From Curtobacterium poinsettiae (lineage in GTDB: Bacteria > Actinomycetota > Actinomycetes > Actinomycetales > Microbacteriaceae): a stretch of 64,000 nt of DNA. The stretch spans positions 1-64,000 of the forward strand of contig NZ_CP106879.1 in assembly GCF_025677645.1 (NCBI RefSeq), written 5' to 3'. Positions 5,832-55,027 of this stretch are shown in pieces. Within the stretch, counting starts at the first letter, position 1. Each line of letters starts with the position of its first letter. The notes under the pieces are model-generated. The model had not been told where the DNA came from. It saw nothing but the letters and a program-made list of their open reading frames with translations, and did no database searches. Both the position numbers and the translations under genes were made by a program.

Positions 5832-5889
5832 GCCAGCTCCCATCCCGGGCGTGTCGCGTTGTGCAACACACGTCGCCCGGACGCAGCGA

Positions 5890-5916
5890 TGCCCGGTTCC
5901 ACAGGGGAACCGGGCA
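5890..5916 (-). terminator. tyrS terminator hairpin
   Basis: A perfect 11-bp inverted repeat (5890-5900 with 5906-5916, arm TGCCCGGTTCC, loop 5 nt) lies 25 nt past the tyrS stop and just before rRNA promoter P1. There is no U-tract, which is usual for actinobacterial terminators. Confidence 0.6.
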
Positions 5917-5940
5917 CCACAGGCGGTCGAGCAACCGGGA

Positions 5941-7254
5941 TCAGGCGAGTGTCACGCCGGCGAGGGTCTTCTTGCCACGGCGCAGCACGAGCACTCCCCC
6001 GGGCAGGGCGAGATCGGACAGCGGGGCGGCCGGGTCGTCGGCCCGGACGTTGTTCACGTAGACACCGCCCTGTTCGATCGCGCGGCGGGCTTCACCGAGG
6101 GACTTCACGAGTTCGGTCTCCACGAGTGCACGTGCAACGTCCGCTCCGGAGTCGAGCGTGACCGACCCCGGCAGCGCGGCGATCGCCGACCGCAGGGTCT
6201 CCGGGTCGAGCGCGCCGAGCTCGCCGTTGCCGAACAACGCGGCTGCGGCATCGATCGCCGCCTGGGTCGCCGCCACCCCGTGCACGATCGAGGTGACCTC
6301 GAACGCCAGGGTCCGCTGGGCCGCTCGTCGGAAGGGTTCGTCGGCGACGGCCTGCTCGAGTCGTTCGATCTCGGCACGCGTCAGGAACGTGAACTGCCGC
6401 AGCCGGGCGATCACGTCGGCATCCGCCGTGTTGAGCCAGAACTGGTAGAGCGCGTACGGCGAGGTCATCTCGGCATCGAGCCAGATCGCGTTGCCCTCGC
6501 TCTTGCCGAACTTCGTGCCGTCGGAGTTCGTGATGAGCGGGGTACCGAGGGCGTGCACCGTCGCACCTTCGGCGCGACGAATGAGCTCGGTGCCGGAGGT
6601 CAGGTTGCCCCACTGGTCCGAGCCGCCGGTCTGCAGCGTGCACCCGTACTGGCGCCAGAGCTCGCGGTAGTCGAGCCCCTGCAGGATCTGGTAGCTGAAC
6701 TCGGTGTAGCTGATCCCCGCATCGGAGTTCAGCCGCGCGGCCACCGCGTCCTTCTTGAGCATCGAGTTGACGCGGAAGTACTTGCCGACGTCACGAAGGA
6801 AGTCGATCGCGGACAAGGGGGCGGTCCAGTCGAGGTTGTTCACCAGGCGGACACCGTTGTCGCCGTCCGGGCTGAGGAACCGGGACACCTGTGCCTGCAG
6901 CCGGGACACCCACTCCGCCACGGTCTCCGGGGTGTTCAGCGTGCGCTCGGCCGTGGGTCGGGGATCGCCGATGAGGCCGGTCGACCCGCCCACCAACGCG
7001 AGCGGCTTGTGCCCGGCGAGCTGCAGCCGCCGCATGGTCAGGAGCTGCAGGAGGTTGCCGCAGTGCAGCGACGGCGCCGTCGGGTCGAAGCCGCAGTAGT
7101 ACGTGATCGGCTCACCGTCGAGGGCCTCTTGCAGCGCGGTCTCGTCGGTCGAGACCTGCACCAGACCGCGCCACTGCAGTTCGTCCCACACCGAGTCGAA
7201 GGCCGGGTCGTTCTGCTGGCGCGTCAGGACGTCTTGAGCGGTATCACTGGACAC
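5941..7254 (-). CDS. tyrS: Tyrosyl-tRNA synthetase
   Basis: Cytoplasmic class I aminoacyl-tRNA synthetase that charges tRNA-Tyr with tyrosine. The 437-aa protein has the HIGH-type motif HCGN (about residues 64-67), the KMSKS-type loop KFGKS (248-252) and a C-terminal S4 RNA-binding domain (about 370-437), the normal bacterial TyrRS layout and length. The start is GTG at 7254. A -10-like TACGAT (7261-7266) sits 6 nt upstream, which suggests a leaderless mRNA. It lies between mpg and the rRNA operon, so a translation gene directly precedes the rRNA promoters. Confidence 0.96.
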   Translation of the reverse strand: MSSDTAQDVLTRQQNDPAFDSVWDELQWRGLVQVSTDETALQEALDGEPITYYCGFDPTAPSLHCGNLLQLLTMRRLQLAGHKPLALVGGSTGLIGDPRPTAERTLNTPETVAEWVSRLQAQVSRFLSPDGDNGVRLVNNLDWTAPLSAIDFLRDVGKYFRVNSMLKKDAVAARLNSDAGISYTEFSYQILQGLDYRELWRQYGCTLQTGGSDQWGNLTSGTELIRRAEGATVHALGTPLITNSDGTKFGKSEGNAIWLDAEMTSPYALYQFWLNTADADVIARLRQFTFLTRAEIERLEQAVADEPFRRAAQRTLAFEVTSIVHGVAATQAAIDAAAALFGNGELGALDPETLRSAIAALPGSVTLDSGADVARALVETELVKSLGEARRAIEQGGVYVNNVRADDPAAPLSDLALPGGVLVLRRGKKTLAGVTLA

Positions 7255-7260
7255 CCCGCC

Positions 7261-7266
7261 ATCGTA
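7261..7266 (-). promoter_or_regulatory. tyrS -10 element (leaderless)
   Basis: TACGAT lies 6 nt before the GTG start of tyrS on the minus strand, so transcription would begin at or next to the start codon. No good -35 was seen. It is one of many such TANNNT boxes in the window. Confidence 0.45.
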
Positions 7267-7317
7267 GCGGCGACGGACGTCCGGCAGGCGCGGCAGCCGG
7301 GAGGCCCGGGGCCGGGT

Positions 7318-10731
<3,414 letters not shown>

Positions 10732-11673: not shown

Positions 11674-12893
11674 GCGGTGGGCTCCTGCGCTGCGGCGACG
11701 GCCGCGAGGCTCTGGGCGAGGGTCGACAGGAACTCGTCGATCTCGGCGTCGGACACGATGAGCGGCGGTGCGATGCGCAGGCTCGACTCGTTGGGGGCGT
11801 TGATGATGAGGCCACGCTCGAGGGCGGCGGCGTTGACGGCCGGGCCGATCGGACCGGTCAGACCGACGCCGATGAGCAGGCCGGTGCCACGGACCTCTTC
11901 CACCAGCGGGGAACCGATGGCGCGGATGCCGTCACGGATCCGCTCGCCCTTGACCACTGCGCCGGCGACCAGGTCGGCGCGCTCGATCTCCTCGAGCACC
12001 GCGTTCGCGACGCGGGTGCCGAGCGGGTTGCCGCCGAAGGTCGAACCGTGCTGCCCGGCCGAGAACAGGTCGGACGCCCAGCCGAACGTGACGAGGGCGC
12101 CGATGGGGAAGCCGCCGGCGATCCCCTTGGCGACGGTGATGGCGTCCGGCGTCACACCGTGGCCCTGGAACGCGAACCAGTTGCCGGTCCGGCCGACACC
12201 CGTCTGGATCTCGTCGAGGATCAGCAGTGCGCCGTGCTCCGCGGTCAGTCGGCGTGCCGCCAGCAGGAAGCCCTCGGGCAGGTCGACCACGCCGGCCTCG
12301 CCCTTGATGGGTTCGAGGACCAGGGCGGCGACGGAGTCGTCGATCGACGCTTCGAGCGCCTCGATCGAGGTGTCGATGTGCTCGACGCCCGGGATCATCG
12401 GCAGGAAGTCCTGCTGCAGCGCGGGCTTGCCGGTGAGCGCGAGCGCACCCATGGTGCGGCCGTGGAAGCCCTGCTTGAGCGCGATGATCCGGGTCTTCGT
12501 GCCATCCGCACCCTTGTTGAGGCGGGCCAGCTTGAACGCGGCTTCGTTCGCCTCGGCGCCGGAGTTGCCGAAGTAGACACGGCCCGCGTCGCCCGCGCCG
12601 GTGATGCGCTTGAGGCGCTCGGCGAGTTCGAGCTGCGGCGGAGTGGCGAAGTAGTTCGACACGTGCACGAGCTTCGCGGCCTGGTCGGCGATCGCCTCGA
12701 CGAGCGCGGGGTGCGCGTGACCGAGCGAGTTCACCGCGATGCCTGCGAGGAAGTCGAGGTACTCGTTGCCGTCGACGTCCCAGACGCGGCAGCCCTGGCC
12801 ACGCTCGAGCATGATCTTCGGCGGGGTCAGGGATCGCATGAGCGACGCCCCGAACCGGTCGTTCCAGGTCTCGGTCTGCGTCTCGGTGCTCAC
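11670..12893 (-). CDS. argD: Acetylornithine aminotransferase
   Basis: PLP-dependent class III aminotransferase that converts N-acetylglutamate semialdehyde to N-acetylornithine. In the 407-aa protein the PLP lysine is in [14 protein letters not shown] (Lys256), with the aspartate in LILDEIQTG (224-232) and the phosphate-binding GNSGAEANE (109-117). The GTG start at 12893 overlaps the argB stop (GTGA), which is why it was chosen over upstream in-frame ATGs. Confidence 0.96.
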
Positions 12894-13942
12894 TGCTGGT
12901 GTCCCTTCTCGTCCGTACCCGCCACGTGCTGGCCGGTACTGCTGTCGATCGACGGCGACGCCACGCGACGGCCGATCTCGGCGTGGGTCATCTGGTTCTC
13001 GGTTCGTCGGCTCGGGTCCGGGATCACCTCGGTTCCCGCACCCCGCAGGGTGAAGACCTCGAGCAGGATCGAGTGCGGGATCCGGCCGTCGATGATGGTC
13101 GCACCGCCGACCCCGCCGACCACGGCGTCGAGGCACGCGGTCATCTTGGGGATCATCCCCGACTCGAGACTCGGCAGGAGTGCACGGAGCTCGTCGACCG
13201 CGATGAGGTCGACGATCGAGTCACGGTCGGGCCAGTTGCGGTACAGACCGGGCACGTCGGTGAGCATCATGAGCTTCGAGGCCCGGAGCGCGATCGCCAG
13301 GGCACCGGCCGCCGCGTCCGCGTTCACGTTGAGGGCCTGGTCGGGGTGCGCGTCGTCGATCGCGATGCTCGAGACGACCGGGATCCGGCCGGCCTCGATC
13401 GCGGCGAGCACACCCGACGGGTCGACGTGGGTGATGTCCCCGACGTGGCCGAGGTCGTACTCCTGCCCGTCGACGACGACGCCCTTCTTCTCGCCGGTGA
13501 ACAGCGAGCCGCCGTCGCCGAACACGCCGACGGCCAGGCCCTCGCCGTGTTCGTTCATCAAGTCGACGATCTCGCGGTTGACCTCGCCCGCCAGGACGTC
13601 GCGGACGACGGTGATCGCCTCGGTCGTCGTGACACGGTAGCCGCCGCGGAACTCGGACTCGATGCCCTGTTCCTTGAGGGCGGCGGAGATCTGCGGGCCG
13701 CCGCCGTGCACGACGACGGGGTGCAGGCCGGCGTAGCGCAGGTAGACCATGTCCTCGGCGAAGGCGCGCTTCAGGTCCTCGTTCACCATGGCGTTGCCGC
13801 CGAACTTGACCACGACGACCTTGCCCGAGAAGCGCTTCAGCCAGGGCAGCGACTCGATGAGCGTCGCGGCCTTGACCGCGGCGAACTCGTGTTCTTCTTC
13901 CTTCGTGAGGGGCGTCCCGGCCCCTTCGGTGTCGTTCGCCAT
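12890..13942 (-). CDS. argB: Acetylglutamate kinase
   Basis: Phosphorylates N-acetylglutamate, the usual control point of arginine synthesis. The 350-aa protein has the amino-acid-kinase motifs [10 protein letters not shown] (about 43-52), [11 protein letters not shown] (about 76-86) and [12 protein letters not shown] (about 225-236). The catalytic core ends near residue 309 and is followed by about 40 residues of polar tail (rich in Ser, Thr, His, Gln) that most homologues lack. Its ATG shares one base with the argJ stop (TGATG). Confidence 0.96.
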
Positions 13943-46877: not shown

Positions 46878-47843
46878 ATGCGAGCCATCACGTTCGACGA
46901 CGCCACCATGTCCGTCACCGACCTGCCCGACCCGGAACCCGGCACGGACGAGGTCCTGATCGAGGTCGCCGCGGCTGGCGTCAACAACGCCGACCTGCAG
47001 CAGCGTGCGGGCAACTACCCGCCGCCGCCGGGGGCGTCGGAGATCCTCGGGCTCGAGGTCTCCGGCACCGTGCGGGCCGTCGGCGGGGGCGTCACGACCG
47101 TGGCGGTGGGCGACCGGGTGTGCGCGCTCCTCTCCGGCGGCGGGTACGCGGCACTCGTGGTCGCGCCGGTCACCCAGGTGCTGCCGGTCCCCGAGGGCGT
47201 CGACCTGGTCGATGCGGCCGGACTGCCCGAGGCCGCCTGCACCGTCTATTCCAACATCGGCATGCTCGCCGGGCTCCGACCGGGGCAGACGCTCCTGGTG
47301 CACGGCGGTACTGGTGGCATGGGGTCGCACGCGGTGCTGTGGGCGAAGGCCCTCGGTGCGACCGTGATCGCGACGAGCGGCGGCGACCGCAAGGTCGCCG
47401 CGTCCCGTGACCTCGGCGCCGACCTGGTGGTCGACCACCGCACGGAGGACTTCGTGGAACGCGTCCTGGCGTTCACCGATGGCGTGGGTGTCGACGTGGT
47501 GCTCGACGTCGTCGGACCGTCCTACCTGGAGCGGAACCTGCAGGCCCTCGCCCCGAACGGGCACGTCGCGGTCATCGCCTCCGGCAGCGGCCGCACCGCC
47601 GAGCTCGACTTCGGGGTGCTGATGCGGAAGCGCGCGACGATCAGCGGCACGACCCTGCGCGCACGGCCGCTCGCCGAGAAGGCCGCCATCGTCGAGGCGG
47701 TCCGCTACAACGTCTGGCCGCTCGTCGCCGACGGCCGGGTGCTGCCGGTCATCGACTCGGTGCTGCCCCTGGCCGAGGTCGAGGAGGCTCACCGTCGCGT
47801 GCGCGACGGCGAGGTGATCGGCAAGGTGCTGCTGACGCCCTAG
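46878..47843 (+). CDS. Zinc-free quinone oxidoreductase (PIG3-like)
   Basis: 321-aa NADPH-dependent medium-chain reductase. The N-terminal GroES-like domain has GVNNADLQQRAGNYPPPPG (PIG3 signature), and the Rossmann domain has LLVHGGTGGMGSHAV (about 139-153). No zinc-binding cysteine cluster is seen, as in quinone reductases. Its stop (TAG) and the stop of the opposite ABC ATPase share the four bases CTAG (47840-47843). Confidence 0.9.
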   Translation: MRAITFDDATMSVTDLPDPEPGTDEVLIEVAAAGVNNADLQQRAGNYPPPPGASEILGLEVSGTVRAVGGGVTTVAVGDRVCALLSGGGYAALVVAPVTQVLPVPEGVDLVDAAGLPEAACTVYSNIGMLAGLRPGQTLLVHGGTGGMGSHAVLWAKALGATVIATSGGDRKVAASRDLGADLVVDHRTEDFVERVLAFTDGVGVDVVLDVVGPSYLERNLQALAPNGHVAVIASGSGRTAELDFGVLMRKRATISGTTLRARPLAEKAAIVEAVRYNVWPLVADGRVLPVIDSVLPLAEVEEAHRRVRDGEVIGKVLLTP

Positions 47844-48616
47844 ACGTGCACGCGGGCGAGGAACTCGACGAGCGCCGGGTGCTGCGGGTGGTCGAGGACG
47901 TCGGCCGGGGACCCCTGCTCGACGACCTCGCCGCGGTGCAGGAACACGATCCGGTCGGCGACGTTCCGTGCGAAGTGCATCTCGTGCGTCGTCATCAGGA
48001 TCGTCGAACCCTGTCGCTTCAGCTCCGTGACCAGGTCGAGCACCTCGCCGACGAGCTGCGGGTCGAGGGCGCTCGTGACCTCGTCGAGCAGCAGGAGTTC
48101 CGGGTCCGACGCGATCGCCCGGACGATGGCGACGCGCTGCTGCTGCCCGCCGGACAGGCGGTCGGGGTACGCATCCGCGAACGAGGCGAGCCCGATCCGG
48201 TCGAGCAGCCGGCGCGCGGTCTCCTCGGCCTGGGCTCGTCCGATGCCGTGCACCTGGCGGGACGCAAGCGTGACGTTGTCGAGCACGCTCATGTGCGGGA
48301 ACAGGTTGAACTGCTGGAACACCACGCCGATGCGCGCCCGCACGGCGTCGACGGCGACGCGCGGGTCGGCGATGTCCGTGCCCTGCAGCAGGATCTCGCC
48401 GTCGTCGATGCCCTCGAGCAGGTTGACCGTCTTGAGCAGCGTCGACTTGCCGGAGCCCGAGGCCCCGATGACGCAGATGACCTGGTGGCGGTGGACCGTC
48501 AGGTCGATCCCGCGCAGGACCTCGTGCTCGCCGAAGGCCTTGCGCAACCCGCGTAGTTCGAGGACCGCGGCGTCCGCACCAGACGCACCACGGGCCTCCA
48601 GGCCGGCCTCGCTCAT
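47840..48616 (-). CDS. Polar amino acid ABC transporter, ATP-binding protein
   Basis: 258-aa ATPase of the PAAT (GlnQ/HisP) family. Walker A GASGSGSGKSTLL (about 51-62), Q-loop VVFQQFNLFP, signature RLSGGQQQRVAIVRA, Walker B LLLLDEVTSALD and the switch histidine TTHEM are all intact. ATG 48616 overlaps the permease stop (ATGA). The N-terminal GLEARGASG is encoded by a one-mismatch copy of the dispersed 11-mer. Confidence 0.93.
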   Translation of the reverse strand: MSEAGLEARGASGADAAVLELRGLRKAFGEHEVLRGIDLTVHRHQVICVIGASGSGKSTLLKTVNLLEGIDDGEILLQGTDIADPRVAVDAVRARIGVVFQQFNLFPHMSVLDNVTLASRQVHGIGRAQAEETARRLLDRIGLASFADAYPDRLSGGQQQRVAIVRAIASDPELLLLDEVTSALDPQLVGEVLDLVTELKRQGSTILMTTHEMHFARNVADRIVFLHRGEVVEQGSPADVLDHPQHPALVEFLARVHV

Positions 48617-49491
48617 ACGGTCCCTCCGATCTGCTCGCGCCGCTGCTGGCGACGCGCGATCGCGTCCGTGACGCGGATCAGCGGCAGGCTGATCACCACG
48701 AACAGCAGCCCGGCGACGAAGTACGGCGTGAAGTTGTAGGTCTCGGCCTGCGCGATCTGGGCGGAGCGGACCGCGTCGACGGCCCCGAGGATCGACACCA
48801 GACCGACGTCCTTCTGCATCGACACGAAGTCGTTCATGAGCGCCGGGGTGACCTTGCGGATCGCCTGCGGCAGCACCACGAGCCGCAGGGTCTTGGCGTG
48901 CGAGAGTCCGAGCGACCGGGCGGCCAGGCGCTGGGAGGGGTGCACGGCCTCCATGCCGGCGCGGAGCACCTCGGCGATGTACGACGAGTAGGTCAGGGTG
49001 ATCGCGATCGTGCCCCAGACCTCGGCGGGGAGCCGCGGGAACACCCCGAGCCCGGGGATGCCGTAGCCGACCAGGTAGAGCACGATGATGAGCGGCAGGC
49101 CGCGGAACAGGTCCGTGTAGCCGGTCGCGAGCATCCGCAGCGGGAAGAACACCGGGTTGCGCAGGCCGCGGACGACCGCGAGCAGCGTGCCGAACACGGC
49201 GACGCCGATGGCGCTGAAGAACAGGATCCGGACGTTCAGCCAGAGGCCCACCAGGATGTCCGGGAACGTGTCGACCGCGGTCTGCGGGTCGAAGAACGAC
49301 TGCTGCACCGCCGCCCACCCGGGGGTGTTCACGACGCCGAAGTACACGACGGCGAGCACGACCAGCGTGGAGACGACCGACACCACGACGGAGCGACGGC
49401 CGCGCTGGCGACGGTAGAGCCGACGCTCGAGCTCGACCTGGCTCGGCGCGGGTGCGGCGACCGGGGTGCCGGCCCCTGCTGGCAGGGTCAT
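48613..49491 (-). CDS. Polar amino acid ABC transporter, permease
   Basis: 292-aa HisM/GlnP-type permease. An extended basic cytoplasmic N-terminus (about 1-33) precedes the membrane domain (five to six spans), which has the PAAT signature TDLFRGLPLIIVLYLVGYG and the EAA loop VLRAGMEAVHPSQRLAARSLGLS. A single permease gene suggests a homodimer. It starts 4 bp after the binding protein. Confidence 0.92.
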   Translation of the reverse strand: MTLPAGAGTPVAAPAPSQVELERRLYRRQRGRRSVVVSVVSTLVVLAVVYFGVVNTPGWAAVQQSFFDPQTAVDTFPDILVGLWLNVRILFFSAIGVAVFGTLLAVVRGLRNPVFFPLRMLATGYTDLFRGLPLIIVLYLVGYGIPGLGVFPRLPAEVWGTIAITLTYSSYIAEVLRAGMEAVHPSQRLAARSLGLSHAKTLRLVVLPQAIRKVTPALMNDFVSMQKDVGLVSILGAVDAVRSAQIAQAETYNFTPYFVAGLLFVVISLPLIRVTDAIARRQQRREQIGGTV

Positions 49492-50400: not shown

Positions 50401-50919
50401 CTACTCGGCGGCAGCGTCTCCGTCGTCGGCCATCGTGAAGTCGTCGAACGAGAAGCCCGGCGACACCAGGCAGCTCAGCAGCACCTCGCCGTCGCCCGGG
50501 ATCGTCCGCTGCCACACGCCGCCGCGCACGAACGCCTGCGCGTCGTTCACGCGGTCGCGGCCGGCGTCCGGGCCGAGGGTGATCGTCGCACTGGGTTCGG
50601 GGACGTCGCCGTCGCCGCCGAGCTGCAGGTCGACGGTGTCCGGCCCGTGCCACATCCAGATCTCGTCGCTCGTGACCCGGTGCCAGGCGGAGGCCTCGCC
50701 CGGGGGCAGCAGGAAGTGGATCAGGGTGGCGGCGGGACGCTCCCCCGCAGGGGTGGTGACCGTCGCCGGCGAGGTCCAGGTGCGGACGTACCAGCCGCCC
50801 TCGGGGTGCGGTTCCATGCCGAGGGCGATCGCGCGCTTCGGCACGTCGAGCCACTCGATCAGCTCACCGGTGACGGTTCGGCGTGCGGCCATGCCGGGGT
50901 GGGGTGCGGACTCGGTCAT
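50401..50919 (-). CDS. DUF985 cupin protein
   Basis: 172-aa single-domain cupin of the DUF985/YML079 type, recognised by ALGMEPHPEGGWYVRTW (about 33-49) and the double-stranded beta-helix segments THFLLPPGEASAWHRV and SDEIWMWHGPD. A metal or sugar-nucleotide-like ligand has been proposed for the fold, but no reaction is known. The ATG overlaps the amidohydrolase stop (ATGA), so the genes are translationally coupled. Confidence 0.85.
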   Translation of the reverse strand: MTESAPHPGMAARRTVTGELIEWLDVPKRAIALGMEPHPEGGWYVRTWTSPATVTTPAGERPAATLIHFLLPPGEASAWHRVTSDEIWMWHGPDTVDLQLGGDGDVPEPSATITLGPDAGRDRVNDAQAFVRGGVWQRTIPGDGEVLLSCLVSPGFSFDDFTMADDGDAAAE

Positions 50920-52310
50920 CGTTCCTCCTGGGAAGGGACTGGCGGCGGAGCGACCGCCGTGGACGGTGCGGGCGGTTCGGTGACGACGCCCGCCGCGGCG
51001 CGGACGACCCCGCGGATCACGGTGGCGGCCGCCCGCCCGGCGCCGTCCTCGACGAGCTCGGCGAGCGCGTCCGGCACCGTGCGGGCGTCGACGTCGAACA
51101 CCGCCAGGTCGGCGCGCGCCCCGACGGCGAGGTGTCCGATGCGGTCCGGTCCGACGGCCAGCCCCATCGCGTGCGCACCACCGAGGGTCGCCGCGGCGAG
51201 CAGTCGCTCGTGCAGGTCGCGGTGCCCGTAGCCCTGGGCGCGGGCGATCCGGTGCAGCGCGGTGACGTCGGCCATCAGGTCGAGGGACGGCGACGACGAC
51301 AGGGAGTCGGTGCCGATGGCGATCGGGCTCCCCTCGCGCAGGTAGTCGGCGACGGGCGGCGGGTCGAGGCCGATGACGGCGTTGGATCGCGGGCACAGCG
51401 CCACCGCCGTGCCGCGGGCGCGCAGGAGCGCCCGGTCGGCGGCGGTCATGTACACGCCGTGGGCGATGTGGCAGTCCGGACCGAGCACGCCGAGGCGGTC
51501 GACGAACGCGGTCGCGCTCGCACCGAAGCCCAGGGCTCGCAGCGCCCGGAACGACGGCACGTTCGCCAGGTGCCAGTCGTTCCCGTGGCCGACGCCGTCG
51601 ACCCCGTCGAGCCCGGGAACCGGACCGAGGGCGGTGCGCTCCCCCTCGAACGCCGCCTCACCGAGGTGCAGGTGCAGCCGCAGGCCGCGCTGCCGCACGA
51701 TGTCGGGCAGCTCCAGCAGCGGGGCGACCTCGAGCGAGTACGGCGCGTGCGGCGACAGGCCCGCACCGGGTGTCGTGGGGATCCGGTCGAGTTCGTCCAG
51801 CACCTGGTCGCGACCGTGCGACTGCCAGGCGTCGTTCTCCCAGTCCATCACCTCCCAGTACGCGATGCCGCCGAGCCCGGCGTCCTGCAGCGCGGTCGAG
51901 GCCTCGATGTCGGTGACGATGTCCGCGATGCTCGTCACGCCGGCCAGGATCGACGCCCGTGCGCCGTCCGCGGCTTCGGCTCGCCAGTCGTGCGGTTCGG
52001 CGTAGTCGACGTTGAACGCAGCAGCCCAGTCCTCGAACCCGTCGTACTGGCGCCGGCCGACACCGGCCATCCCGGTGTACTGCAGGTGCGAGTGCGCGTT
52101 CACGAGTCCGGGCAGGAGCGCGCCACGCCACTGCCGCTCGGTGAAGGCAGCGCCGGACCCGGTGAGCTGGTCGATCACCCACGACCGGTCGCCGACGTGC
52201 AGGATCCGGCCGTCCTGCACGGCGACCGCGCCGTCGGCGATCGGTGGCGCCGTCATCGGGACCACGACGCGCGCCGAGTGCACCGTGACCGGGTGCTGTC
52301 GGGCGCTCAC
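50916..52310 (-). CDS. Amidohydrolase, adenosine/SAH-deaminase-like
   Basis: 464-aa zinc amidohydrolase of the ATZ/TRZ deaminase branch. Metal and catalytic residues are intact: VNAHSHLQ (His73, His75), HLHLGE (His213/215, Glu218), IAHG (His284) and GTDS (Asp335). SPHAPYS (186-192) matches the family that deaminates adenosine-ring compounds such as S-adenosylhomocysteine, 5'-deoxyadenosine or aminofutalosine. GTG start overlaps the stop of the SahH-like gene (GTGA), strong evidence of joint function. Confidence 0.85.
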   Translation of the reverse strand: MSARQHPVTVHSARVVVPMTAPPIADGAVAVQDGRILHVGDRSWVIDQLTGSGAAFTERQWRGALLPGLVNAHSHLQYTGMAGVGRRQYDGFEDWAAAFNVDYAEPHDWRAEAADGARASILAGVTSIADIVTDIEASTALQDAGLGGIAYWEVMDWENDAWQSHGRDQVLDELDRIPTTPGAGLSPHAPYSLEVAPLLELPDIVRQRGLRLHLHLGEAAFEGERTALGPVPGLDGVDGVGHGNDWHLANVPSFRALRALGFGASATAFVDRLGVLGPDCHIAHGVYMTAADRALLRARGTAVALCPRSNAVIGLDPPPVADYLREGSPIAIGTDSLSSSPSLDLMADVTALHRIARAQGYGHRDLHERLLAAATLGGAHAMGLAVGPDRIGHLAVGARADLAVFDVDARTVPDALAELVEDGAGRAAATVIRGVVRAAAGVVTEPPAPSTAVAPPPVPSQEER

Positions 52311-54019
52311 GCCGGGTCTCCGAAACGGTGCGTCCGGACGTCCGGCTCGCGGTCCGCGGGGTGTTCAGGGGGAAGGATGGGAGGCCCGACATGCGTTCCG
52401 AAGGCGGCGAGCGCCGCGCGGGCGGTGACGTCGTCGACCGCGGGGTCGATCGGCACGACGGCACGCTCCAGCTCGTCGCCGCGTTCCAGGAGCATCCGGA
52501 CGGCGCCGAGCTGCACGGCGAACGACAGGTCCATGATCTCGACCGGGTTGCCCTCGGCCGCGGTGATGTTGATGCAGCCGCCGTCGTCGAGCACGATCGG
52601 CCCGCCGTCGGCCCCGGGGAACACGAACCGCTCGGCCTTCGGGCCCACGTCCCGCCGCCGGACCCCGGCGGCGATGGCGTCGTCGATGGCGATCTCCTGG
52701 TCGACCCCGCCGGCGACGGCGAGGACCGCGCCGTCCGCGCAGGCACGGAGCACGTCGAGGTCGATGGTGTCCGGCACCCCGGTGGCGCTCATGACGAGGT
52801 CGGCGTCCCGCACCGCCTCGACGAGCGGGGCCACGGTGTACCCGGCGAACCGCGCCTGCAGGGCGCGGACCGGGTCGGTCTCGGCGACCGTCACCCGGAA
52901 CCCGAGGGCGGTGAGCACCAGGGCGACCCCCTCGCCGACGTGCCCGAACCCGGCGACGACCGCCGCGCCTCCCGAGACAACGCGGTGTGTGCCGGACGCG
53001 AGCCCGTCGACCAGGTCGAGCACCGCGAACACCGTCGACTGCCCGGTGCCGTACCGGTTGTCGAAGAACGTCTTGGTGCGGGCGTCGTTCACCGCGATCA
53101 CCGGGATGCCGAGCTCGCCGCGCGCTGTCAGTACACGCAGGGGCCGCAGGCCGCTCGTGGTCTCCTCGGCGGCCCCGAGCATCGTCGGCAGCAGGTCGGG
53201 GCGCTCCTGGTGGGCGAGCCGGATGACGTGCGAGCCGTCGTCGAGCAGGATGTGCGGCGCGGTGTCGAGCATCGCGAGGGCCAGCTGCTTCTGCTCGGGG
53301 AGCGTCGCCGTGCTGCTCGCGAAGACCGTCAGTCCGGCGGACCGCAGTGCGTCGGCGACGGCGTCGTCGGTCTCGTCGGCGTGGGCGTAGACGACGACCT
53401 CGGCACCGGCGTCACGGAGCAGCAGGCTCAGCACCGCCGTCTTGGGCTCGAGGAACATCGCGACGCCGATGCGTGTGCCGCGCAGGAGCCCGCCGTCGCG
53501 GAGTTCCGCGGCGACCGACCGGGCGACCGGCATCGACCGTCGTGCCCAGCGCAGGCGGGCGTCCGCTGCGGGGTCGTCCTCGGGGTCGCGGCCGGTGGAC
53601 ACCAGGAAGACGTCGTCGGACAGCATCGGGACGGCGAGCACGCCGGGGCGGGCGGGTGCGACGGGGCCGAAGGCGTCCTCGTCGACGGCGGGCAGGTGTC
53701 GGCCGGCGTCGATGACGACCAGGGTGGTGCCGCGCGGGCGGTCGGTGGCCTGCTCGACCGCGGCGGTCGATTCCTCGGGCGTGCCGAGGCACCAGAGCTG
53801 GTCGACGAGGTCGGACGGCTGCTGCTGCTGCTGGTCCGCCTGCTCGGCCTCGCGCGCACCGAGTGCGGTCAGCAGGTGCCGCAGTGCCGCGGCGTCCCGG
53901 GGGTCGCCGCCGACGATGCGGAACCGGCGGGCGGCGACGAGCAGGTTGGTCGCCGCGGCGAACCGCCGCACGGCCGCCGATGCCCAGGCCAGCGTCGCGG
54001 GGTCGGGTGCTGGCGGCAT
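52307..54019 (-). CDS. Divergent adenosylhomocysteinase-like protein
   Basis: 570-aa protein related to S-adenosylhomocysteine hydrolase. NAD-binding GFGHVGEG (357-364), EETTSG (285-290) and TKTFFDN (Lys316, Asp320, Asn321) are kept. By eye, the substrate loop that reads CLHMTVQTAV in true SahH is AMFLEPKTAV here (His55 and Thr57 equivalents become Phe189 and Glu191), and DDGGD becomes DDGSH (260-264). The C-terminal KPDHYRY tail is absent, and an N-terminal region of about 150 residues with a poly-Gln run (63-67) is extra. It is probably not a standard SAH hydrolase. Confidence 0.8.
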   Translation of the reverse strand: MPPAPDPATLAWASAAVRRFAAATNLLVAARRFRIVGGDPRDAAALRHLLTALGAREAEQADQQQQQPSDLVDQLWCLGTPEESTAAVEQATDRPRGTTLVVIDAGRHLPAVDEDAFGPVAPARPGVLAVPMLSDDVFLVSTGRDPEDDPAADARLRWARRSMPVARSVAAELRDGGLLRGTRIGVAMFLEPKTAVLSLLLRDAGAEVVVYAHADETDDAVADALRSAGLTVFASSTATLPEQKQLALAMLDTAPHILLDDGSHVIRLAHQERPDLLPTMLGAAEETTSGLRPLRVLTARGELGIPVIAVNDARTKTFFDNRYGTGQSTVFAVLDLVDGLASGTHRVVSGGAAVVAGFGHVGEGVALVLTALGFRVTVAETDPVRALQARFAGYTVAPLVEAVRDADLVMSATGVPDTIDLDVLRACADGAVLAVAGGVDQEIAIDDAIAAGVRRRDVGPKAERFVFPGADGGPIVLDDGGCINITAAEGNPVEIMDLSFAVQLGAVRMLLERGDELERAVVPIDPAVDDVTARAALAAFGTHVGPPILPPEHPADREPDVRTHRFGDPA

Positions 54020-54061: not shown

Positions 54062-55027
54062 TCAGCGCAGGCGGTCGGGTCCGGGTGTCCCGTCCCAGCC
54101 GGCGGGTGCCTGCGTTCCGTCCCACCCGACGGGTGCCGACAGGGCCTGCGTGCGTCCCCGGTGGTGCCGGAGCACCCCGACCAGCACGGCGACGCCGATG
54201 ACGCTCACGATCGCGAGCCCGATCACGTAGACGGTCGTCACGATCCCGCCGACCGCCGCCGGCACCATGCCGGACTGCGCGGCCGAGAACGGGACCCCGG
54301 ACACGACGAACGCGATCAGCGTGGCGATCGTGCCGTTCGCGTCCCACAGCCCGTGCAGCACCGAGACGACCACGTACGCCACGATCGGCGGCCACGACCA
54401 GCGGAAGCGAGCGCGTCCGGTGGCGGCGCCGAACAGCACCGCACCGAGGATCGCGGTCCACAGCACGTGCCCGACCGGCGCGAGCACCGCGCGGACCACC
54501 TCGGTCTGCAGGAGCGACGCCAGGTCGATCCCCCGGGCCGTGATCGCCGCGTTGAAGGCGTAGCCGGCGGACTCGAACGCGGCGAACCCGGCACCGATCG
54601 TCGCGCCGAGCAGCGCACCCTGCCTCGCCGTCTTCGGGCGGACGCGCCACCCCACGACGACGAGCAGGACGCCCTTCACGAACTCCTCGACGAACCCGAC
54701 GACCAGGTACAGCCCCGCTCCCTGCTCCAGGTCGGCCTCGAGCAGTGACGCCCCGAGTACCCCGAGGATCCCGCCCACGAAGAACGCCGTGACGAGCTGC
54801 ATGGTGCTGACCGTGCCGGTGACCCGCTCGATCACGAACAGCACGACGGTGAACGGCACGAGGAAGCTGCCGAGCAGGATGATCGTCGGCACGAGGTTCG
54901 TGTTCTGCGTCGACACCGTGACGATGATCGTGACGACCCACAGCAGGAAACCGACGAGCAGCGTCTTCCACCACCAGCCGTGGCGGTGGTGGGGGTGTGC
55001 GACGGGCGTGTCCCAGGGCAGGCTCAT
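54062..55027 (-). CDS. PrsW-family intramembrane protease
   Basis: 321-aa membrane protein with about 8-9 spans. The family motifs are present: FVEEFVKG (about 112-119), FAAFESAGYAF, HVLWTAILGA and a histidine in VSVLHGLWDA. The related B. subtilis PrsW cuts an anti-sigma factor, but no sigma/anti-sigma pair is nearby here. The C-terminus contains a short duplicated segment (PVGWDGTQ / PAGWDGTP). Lies 42 bp upstream of the SahH-like gene, same strand. Confidence 0.88.
   Translation of the reverse strand: MSLPWDTPVAHPHHRHGWWWKTLLVGFLLWVVTIIVTVSTQNTNLVPTIILLGSFLVPFTVVLFVIERVTGTVSTMQLVTAFFVGGILGVLGASLLEADLEQGAGLYLVVGFVEEFVKGVLLVVVGWRVRPKTARQGALLGATIGAGFAAFESAGYAFNAAITARGIDLASLLQTEVVRAVLAPVGHVLWTAILGAVLFGAATGRARFRWSWPPIVAYVVVSVLHGLWDANGTIATLIAFVVSGVPFSAAQSGMVPAAVGGIVTTVYVIGLAIVSVIGVAVLVGVLRHHRGRTQALSAPVGWDGTQAPAGWDGTPGPDRLR

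Follow-up and report, generated by a model that had tools for sequence, protein, structure and literature searches.

A six-gene operon on the minus strand of the window, by which we mean the whole 64,000-nucleotide stretch of Curtobacterium poinsettiae DNA analysed here (NCBI RefSeq assembly GCF_025677645.1, contig NZ_CP106879.1, positions 1 to 64,000), encodes a relative of S-adenosylhomocysteine (SAH) hydrolase (SAHH), an amidohydrolase, a DUF985 cupin and the components of an amino-acid-type ATP-binding cassette (ABC) importer. It is very probable that the importer, the predicted deaminase and the remodelled SahH-like enzyme act on an adenosine-type compound. As the best explanation of the whole we tentatively propose an operon for the import and salvage of an exogenous adenosine-type nucleoside. 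A substrate of the SAH class is close to an even guess, with methylthioadenosine (MTA), S-adenosylmethionine (SAM) and other 5'-modified adenosines as alternatives. The genes are arranged as follows:

52307 to 54019, minus strand: SahH-like enzyme ("SahB type"), 570 amino acids, from its NF004005 and TIGR00936 profile scores
50916 to 52310, minus strand: amidohydrolase, predicted adenosine-type deaminase, 464 amino acids, from profile match and alignment
50401 to 50919, minus strand: DUF985 (Cupin_5) protein, 172 amino acids
49496 to 50380, minus strand: solute-binding lipoprotein, SBP_bac_3, start codon uncertain
48613 to 49491, minus strand: amino-acid-type ABC permease
47840 to 48616, minus strand: amino-acid-type ABC ATPase, start inferred

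Recurrence and surroundings of the operon

Loci were picked by the SahH-like gene alone, so the pairing with the amidohydrolase was not built into the comparison. Among 198 genomes sampled at the level of the order, 25 (own genome included) matched the SahH-like protein at an E-value of 1e-40 or better; 20 of the 24 non-self matches were examined in their genomic context, and 16 of them contained the identical six genes in identical order, the other four (L040–L043) carrying other SAHH types. A scan of public genomes, in which 80 of 584 relatives were kept, gave seven with the same SahH-like signature, and in the window's own family 36 of 398 genomes matched at 1e-80, with 22 loci besides its own examined. 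The set used for counting comprises 47 loci, including the window and a Roseateles plasmid, with related species counted separately. The amidohydrolase gene lies downstream of the SahH-like gene on the same strand at all 47, either adjacent or up to about 4 kb away, and this pairing exceeds chance. The DUF985 gene is present at 41 loci, a nucleoside hydrolase gene lies near the pair at two, and the importer is of the amino-acid type at 39, of the energy-coupling factor (ECF) type at five (Rathayibacter tanaceti L046, whose S component matches PF07155, and four others) and of the sugar type at two; L144 failed the importer test, with matches to a sugar-type binding protein and a permease-like protein nearby. 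The operon is present in several bacterial phyla; among the matches listed for the SahH-like protein (at least 120), those with an organism name were Curtobacterium.

Within the operon, the earlier note on this DNA had described the SahH-like and amidohydrolase genes as overlapping by GTGA, and both genes proved to be real and to overlap in this way; the importer and the N-terminal extension described below were absent from that note. The amidohydrolase and DUF985 genes overlap by ATGA, with an AGGAGG stretch ahead of the overlap. All 23 binding proteins compared have the carboxylate-site Arg, and 21 have the amine-site Asp; in importers of the PAAT type these presumably bind the carboxylate and the amine of the ligand, respectively.

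A separate canonical sahH, for which the earlier note had suggested searching, is present in the same genome (G000:C1:2904742-2906184). Of 17 operon genomes, a full canonical sahH occurs in 11 and luxS in the remaining six; each thus has another route for SAH, which argues for a role of the operon in salvage rather than housekeeping. In two of the luxS genomes, G173 and G028, luxS is the operon's divergent neighbour, and in G173 it is followed by mtnN (TIGR01704, 111.2 bits, cut-off 73.8). This adjacency points to the SAH class more strongly than anything else, though it is seen in two related genomes only.

At the operon, two sub-threshold matches were the only sign of a known RNA or riboswitch in the window stretch, and none reached the gathering score at eight related loci. 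A DNA pattern for GNPIEIMDLSF gave no match in 396 genomes, a null of little weight because GNPVEIMD, the form present in the window, falls outside the pattern. The literature searched, on SAH uptake and ABC transporters (among the matches listed), Bifidobacterium adenosylhomocysteinase, MtsT, gate mutants and SAH hydrolase-like nucleoside enzymes, contained neither an account of this operon nor the phrase "S-inosylhomocysteine hydrolase", subscription papers lying mostly outside its scope. A gene for a PrsW-type membrane protease (54062–55027, same strand) lies 42 bases upstream of the SahH-like gene; it is also found upstream in two more Curtobacterium loci, L044 and L045, with no match in L024–L043. 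In L045, an open reading frame (ORF) of 263 amino acids (12555–13346) lies between the DUF985 and binding-protein genes.

Residues kept and lost by the two enzymes

The SahH-like protein reaches the cut-off of NF004005 (348.3 bits, cut-off 275) and misses that of TIGR00936 (303.3 bits, cut-off 497.6), and its nicotinamide adenine dinucleotide (NAD) domain matches PF00670 (100.4 bits). The predicted model (pLDDT 83, pTM 0.84) matches SAHH structures over residues 147–560 only (Foldseek, VIA-align), best those of Thermotoga maritima (3x2f) and Pyrococcus furiosus (7r37). The 3'-oxidation residues E286, K316, D320 and N321 are invariant in 17 aligned sequences and, like Asp261, Glu191 and Lys193, are conserved with few exceptions across relatives from Actinomycetota, Clostridiales and Pseudomonadota. 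Three motifs are replaced according to the alignment:

53441 to 53455, minus strand: FLEPK, residues 189–193, in place of the HxExK signature
52703 to 52711, minus strand: GGV, residues 437–439, in place of the GHF molecular gate
52544 to 52552, minus strand: GNP, residues 490–492, in place of GHP

In the HMMER alignment with the T. maritima and P. furiosus enzymes, FLEPK stands opposite HLEAK or HLEMK, DDGSH opposite DDGGD or DDGAD, GGV opposite GHF and GNP opposite GHP, and Val361 replaces the Cys beside NAD; the HxTxQ/E motif of canonical SAHH is likewise absent, its site being occupied by FLEPK. We take the human numbering of the SAHH sites to be His55, Asp131, Cys195, His301 and His353. 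The earlier note had given the changes at F189, E191 and H264 correctly, as well as the retained EETTSG and TKTFFDN motifs, but its list was incomplete, lacking the replacement of the gate His-Phe by Gly-Val (438–439), of GHP by GNP (491) and of Cys by Val (361). The change from Thr57 to E191, which it had listed among altered adenosine contacts, is real, yet E191 together with K193 makes up the ExK half of the HxExK motif of enzymes preferring S-inosylhomocysteine (SIH) (PMC10978960, available part). Similarly, the DHYRY tail is indeed missing, but this is usual for archaeal-type enzymes rather than peculiar, and the clade has its own R-x-x-R-[YF] C-terminal tail (166 of 263 clade rows versus 0 of 77 outgroup rows).

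These counts come from a 341-row alignment: the gate His is replaced by Gly in 263 rows, both motif and gate carry His in 77, and the fragment P0135 was undecided. A lost gate never goes together with a motif His: the latter (F189 here) is found in none of the 263 family rows, of which P0227 and L046 do not reach across the motif, while E191 and K193 are kept in every family row that spans them. Near copies are numerous in the alignment, 117 rows having the pattern seen in Curtobacterium; the clade's losses of the motif His, Asp at 264, the gate, the GHP His, hinge Asn338 and Cys361 hold once it is thinned to 75% identity (44 family and 57 outgroup rows, the outgroup then lacking L040 and L042). 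Short forms, SahB of L148 for one, retain the hinge Asn. Of a further 120 short relatives, 118 keep both Glu and Lys of HxExK (exceptions P0353 and P0355) and 118 have Asn491. In a quick-method tree of 54 rows the 25 family rows form one clade (SH-aLRT 99). Asn in GNP likewise occurs in two outgroup rows, L041 and L043, a divergent SAHH pair on long branches whose motif is HEK and which have Asn instead of the catalytic Asp131 and Glu instead of Asp190.

According to the available part of Koeppl et al. (PMC10978960), HxExK enzymes prefer SIH and HxTxE(Q) enzymes prefer SAH; the Glu of HxExK touches N1 and its Lys the C6 oxygen, and the gate His touches O5'. The base clamp of the clade is therefore of the inosyl type, with much of the C5' machinery gone. 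In the available portion of a 2026 review (PMC13406329), the gate is described as conserved in all SAHH reactions and mutation of the hinge His as impairing activity. To judge from the residues, two readings would fit the losses: a leaving group that needs no acid, or an elimination without rehydration.

Compared with SIH hydrolases (archaeal-type, HxExK, among them those of T. maritima and P. furiosus), the SahH-like protein shares the fold, the NAD domain, the Glu/Lys pair, the 3'-oxidation residues and, in some cases, a neighbouring deaminase; its clade differs by lacking the catalytic His and the His-Phe gate, by GNP instead of GHP and Val instead of the NAD-side Cys, as well as by the importer operon and, in long forms, an N-terminal extension. 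With canonical SAHH it has the overall fold and the NAD site in common, whereas the HxTxQ/E motif, the gate and the catalytic His are all absent, and it is 31% identical to its own genome's canonical enzyme (L001). AgmF, which dehydrates angustmycin C, is, like the clade, an SAHH relative set apart from ordinary SAHH, and its reaction differs from that of SAHH; H56A, D129A, K184A, D188A and H299A each abolish its activity (PMC8599513, available part). By alignment, the first Asp, the Lys and the second Asp on this list persist in the clade, and both His (56 and 299) are lost.

In the amidohydrolase, the metal and deaminase residues H73, H75, H188, H213, H215, E218, H284 and D335 are invariant in all 12 sequences aligned, out of 17 operon sequences then collected, which bears out the full residue set claimed in the earlier note. 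The metal-site residues, SPHAPY and the sequence family are common to MTA/SAH deaminases (TM0936, 4f0r, 4dyk) and DR_0824, but identity to the MtaD-type deaminases located beside HxExK enzymes is only 22–26%, and an equivalent of TM0936 Arg136 is missing. Kinship with DR_0824, an enzyme of the aminofutalosine pathway, brought that pathway up as a further possibility, which is not favoured here. In several Bacillota loci (L069, L072, L078, L079, L092) an ordinary HxExK SAHH is directly followed by an MtaD-type deaminase (start about 10245–10287), an arrangement that suggests an inosyl route in bacteria other than the thermophiles treated in the available part of PMC10978960. In L144 a gene for an NtaA/DmoA-type flavin mononucleotide monooxygenase (5865–7430, minus strand) adjoins the deaminase gene, which hints at an organosulfur product.

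Proposed pathway and competing explanations

In the pathway that we infer, the ABC importer would take up an exogenous adenosine-type nucleoside and the amidohydrolase would turn its adenine into hypoxanthine. The SahH-like enzyme would bind the hypoxanthine nucleoside via Glu191 and Lys193, oxidise the 3'-OH with bound NAD (Lys316, Asp320, Asn321, Glu286), abstract the C4' proton and then eliminate the 5' substituent. The likeliest substrate would be SAH or a close SAH-type 5'-thioadenosine with a carboxylate. Deamination before the SahH-type step, as in the deaminate-then-hydrolyse route of the earlier note, is supported by the deaminase-type partner at every locus, the hypoxanthine-type Glu/Lys, the closest structures (the T. 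maritima enzyme and the inosine-bound one of P. furiosus) and the nucleoside hydrolase at 2 of the 47 loci. The part of that proposal calling for an ordinary inosylhomocysteine hydrolase fared less well, as the C5'-handling residues are gone and Trp152 replaces TM0936 Arg136. The alignment with SahH and SIH-type enzymes that the note had suggested thus returned the SIH-type Glu and Lys, with the catalytic His and the gate both missing. Since the motif His, the gate, the GHP His and the NAD-side Cys are lost, a SahH-type step is supported but ordinary SIH hydrolysis is not.

Several observations weigh against salvage of an SAH-type compound by this route. The catalytic His, the gate His and the nearby Cys are lost, the motif His and gate His both being absent from all 120 further short relatives, and the matching H56A and H299A substitutions abolish AgmF activity (PMC8599513, available part). 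In the deaminase, Trp152 occupies the place of Arg136 and therefore counts against a plain SAH deaminase; E84, R136 and R148 of TM0936 were located by counting in an alignment that is ambiguous at E84, and we take Arg136 to be the substrate-carboxylate residue and Glu84 the ribose-binding one. The importer varies in type (amino-acid, ECF, sugar-type), its genes lie on the opposite strand in L171 and L177, and the amine-binding Asp is gone in L067 and L037, so that an amino-acid-bearing ligand is uncertain.

The same operon logic could apply to a substrate outside the SAH class (MTA, SAM or another 5'- or sugar-modified adenosine), for which both active sites would have been rebuilt; with SAM, a sulfonium, methionine would leave without an acid. 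This is a serious competitor, although we consider it somewhat doubtful: the missing motif His, gate and Cys of the SahH-like clade, the missing Arg136 of the deaminase, the ECF or sugar-type importer instead of the amino-acid type in 7 of 47 loci and the monooxygenase after the deaminase in L144 speak for it, whereas luxS (two genomes) and mtnN (one) beside the operon point to SAH and the importer's carboxylate Arg is invariant. Mammalian AHCYL proteins are a model for non-catalytic or regulatory SAHH relatives, and several missing catalytic His would suit an AHCYL-like, NAD-binding or regulatory role of the SahH-like protein; we regard this as improbable given the conservation of its oxidation, Asp261 and Glu/Lys residues in three bacterial groups and the amidohydrolase at every locus. 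That the protein is simply the genome's SAH hydrolase, as its database names and the NF004005 score would have it, is very improbable, with the TIGR00936 cut-off missed, a canonical sahH in the same genome and canonical sahH or luxS besides it in 17 of 17 genomes.

N-terminal extension, DUF985 and wider meaning

The long forms of the SahH-like protein begin with an additional segment:

53834 to 54019, minus strand: N-terminal extension, residues 1–62, with a TNLLVA motif, like the start of the SAHH NAD domain

The extension starts with a TNLLIAG-type hinge and the first Rossmann half of the SAHH NAD domain (predicted helix 7–24, strand 32–36, helix 40–52), and its hhalign probability against that domain was 93 with a Demequina/Curtobacterium subset and 43 with all sequences. 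We infer a decayed, fused remnant of a second SahH copy. Two relatives, the Roseateles sp. XES5 plasmid and L159 from the window's family, have a tandem SahA/SahB pair. The order on the plasmid is LacI regulator, SahA, SahB, sugar-type ABC genes, amidohydrolase, ATPase and nucleoside hydrolase; its SahB carries the family signature, and its SahA retains HxExK, a GHH gate and GHP, yet shares Val361. A separate ORF of 289 amino acids lies at the usual place of SahA in L144, with a weak match to the SAHH NAD domain (28.3 bits, cut-off 27); comparable pieces are matched upstream in L161 and L162, whereas L160 and L166 show none; and in the database protein P0273 the rear part of SahA is joined to SahB in one frame. 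Gene position, not the scores, favours SahA as the source over an ancient SahB or SIH hydrolase copy (hhalign probability 84.8 for SIH hydrolase, 79.2 for short SahB, 35.2 for two SahA sequences). Duplication of the protein's own NAD domain was weak as an explanation (hhalign probability 9 and 2.8).

The DUF985 protein is related to 1znp, 1yud, 3m3i and 3loi/3lzz and belongs to a family of largely unknown function, to go by the available part of PMC8704077; 3LZZ is listed with bound guanosine diphosphate in a data-mining paper (PMC11594714, available part). The gene is missing in both loci with full SahA and likewise in L067, L144, L176 and L178. A third pathway step, which the earlier note had also raised, is possible, and action on the 6-oxopurine nucleoside product is a guess. 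In an unlikely but specific two-paralogue scheme, SahB would act as a lyase ejecting the 5' substituent to give 4',5'-didehydro-5'-deoxyinosine, which SahA would hydrate to inosine; in actinobacteria and bifidobacteria SahA would have decayed to the half-Rossmann piece fused to SahB, the DUF985 cupin taking over the finishing step.

Databases label such proteins adenosylhomocysteinase, in Bifidobacterium, Curtobacterium and Microbacterium among others, and they may not hydrolyse SAH. A Bifidobacterium longum model uses an adenosylhomocysteinase gene as SAH hydrolase (PMC8660834, available part), by which membership in the SahB type is not implied. The clade tests how the well-studied SAHH mechanism shifts once the C5' residues are removed, and the operon is a candidate uptake route for thio-nucleosides that gives DUF985 a concrete metabolic setting.

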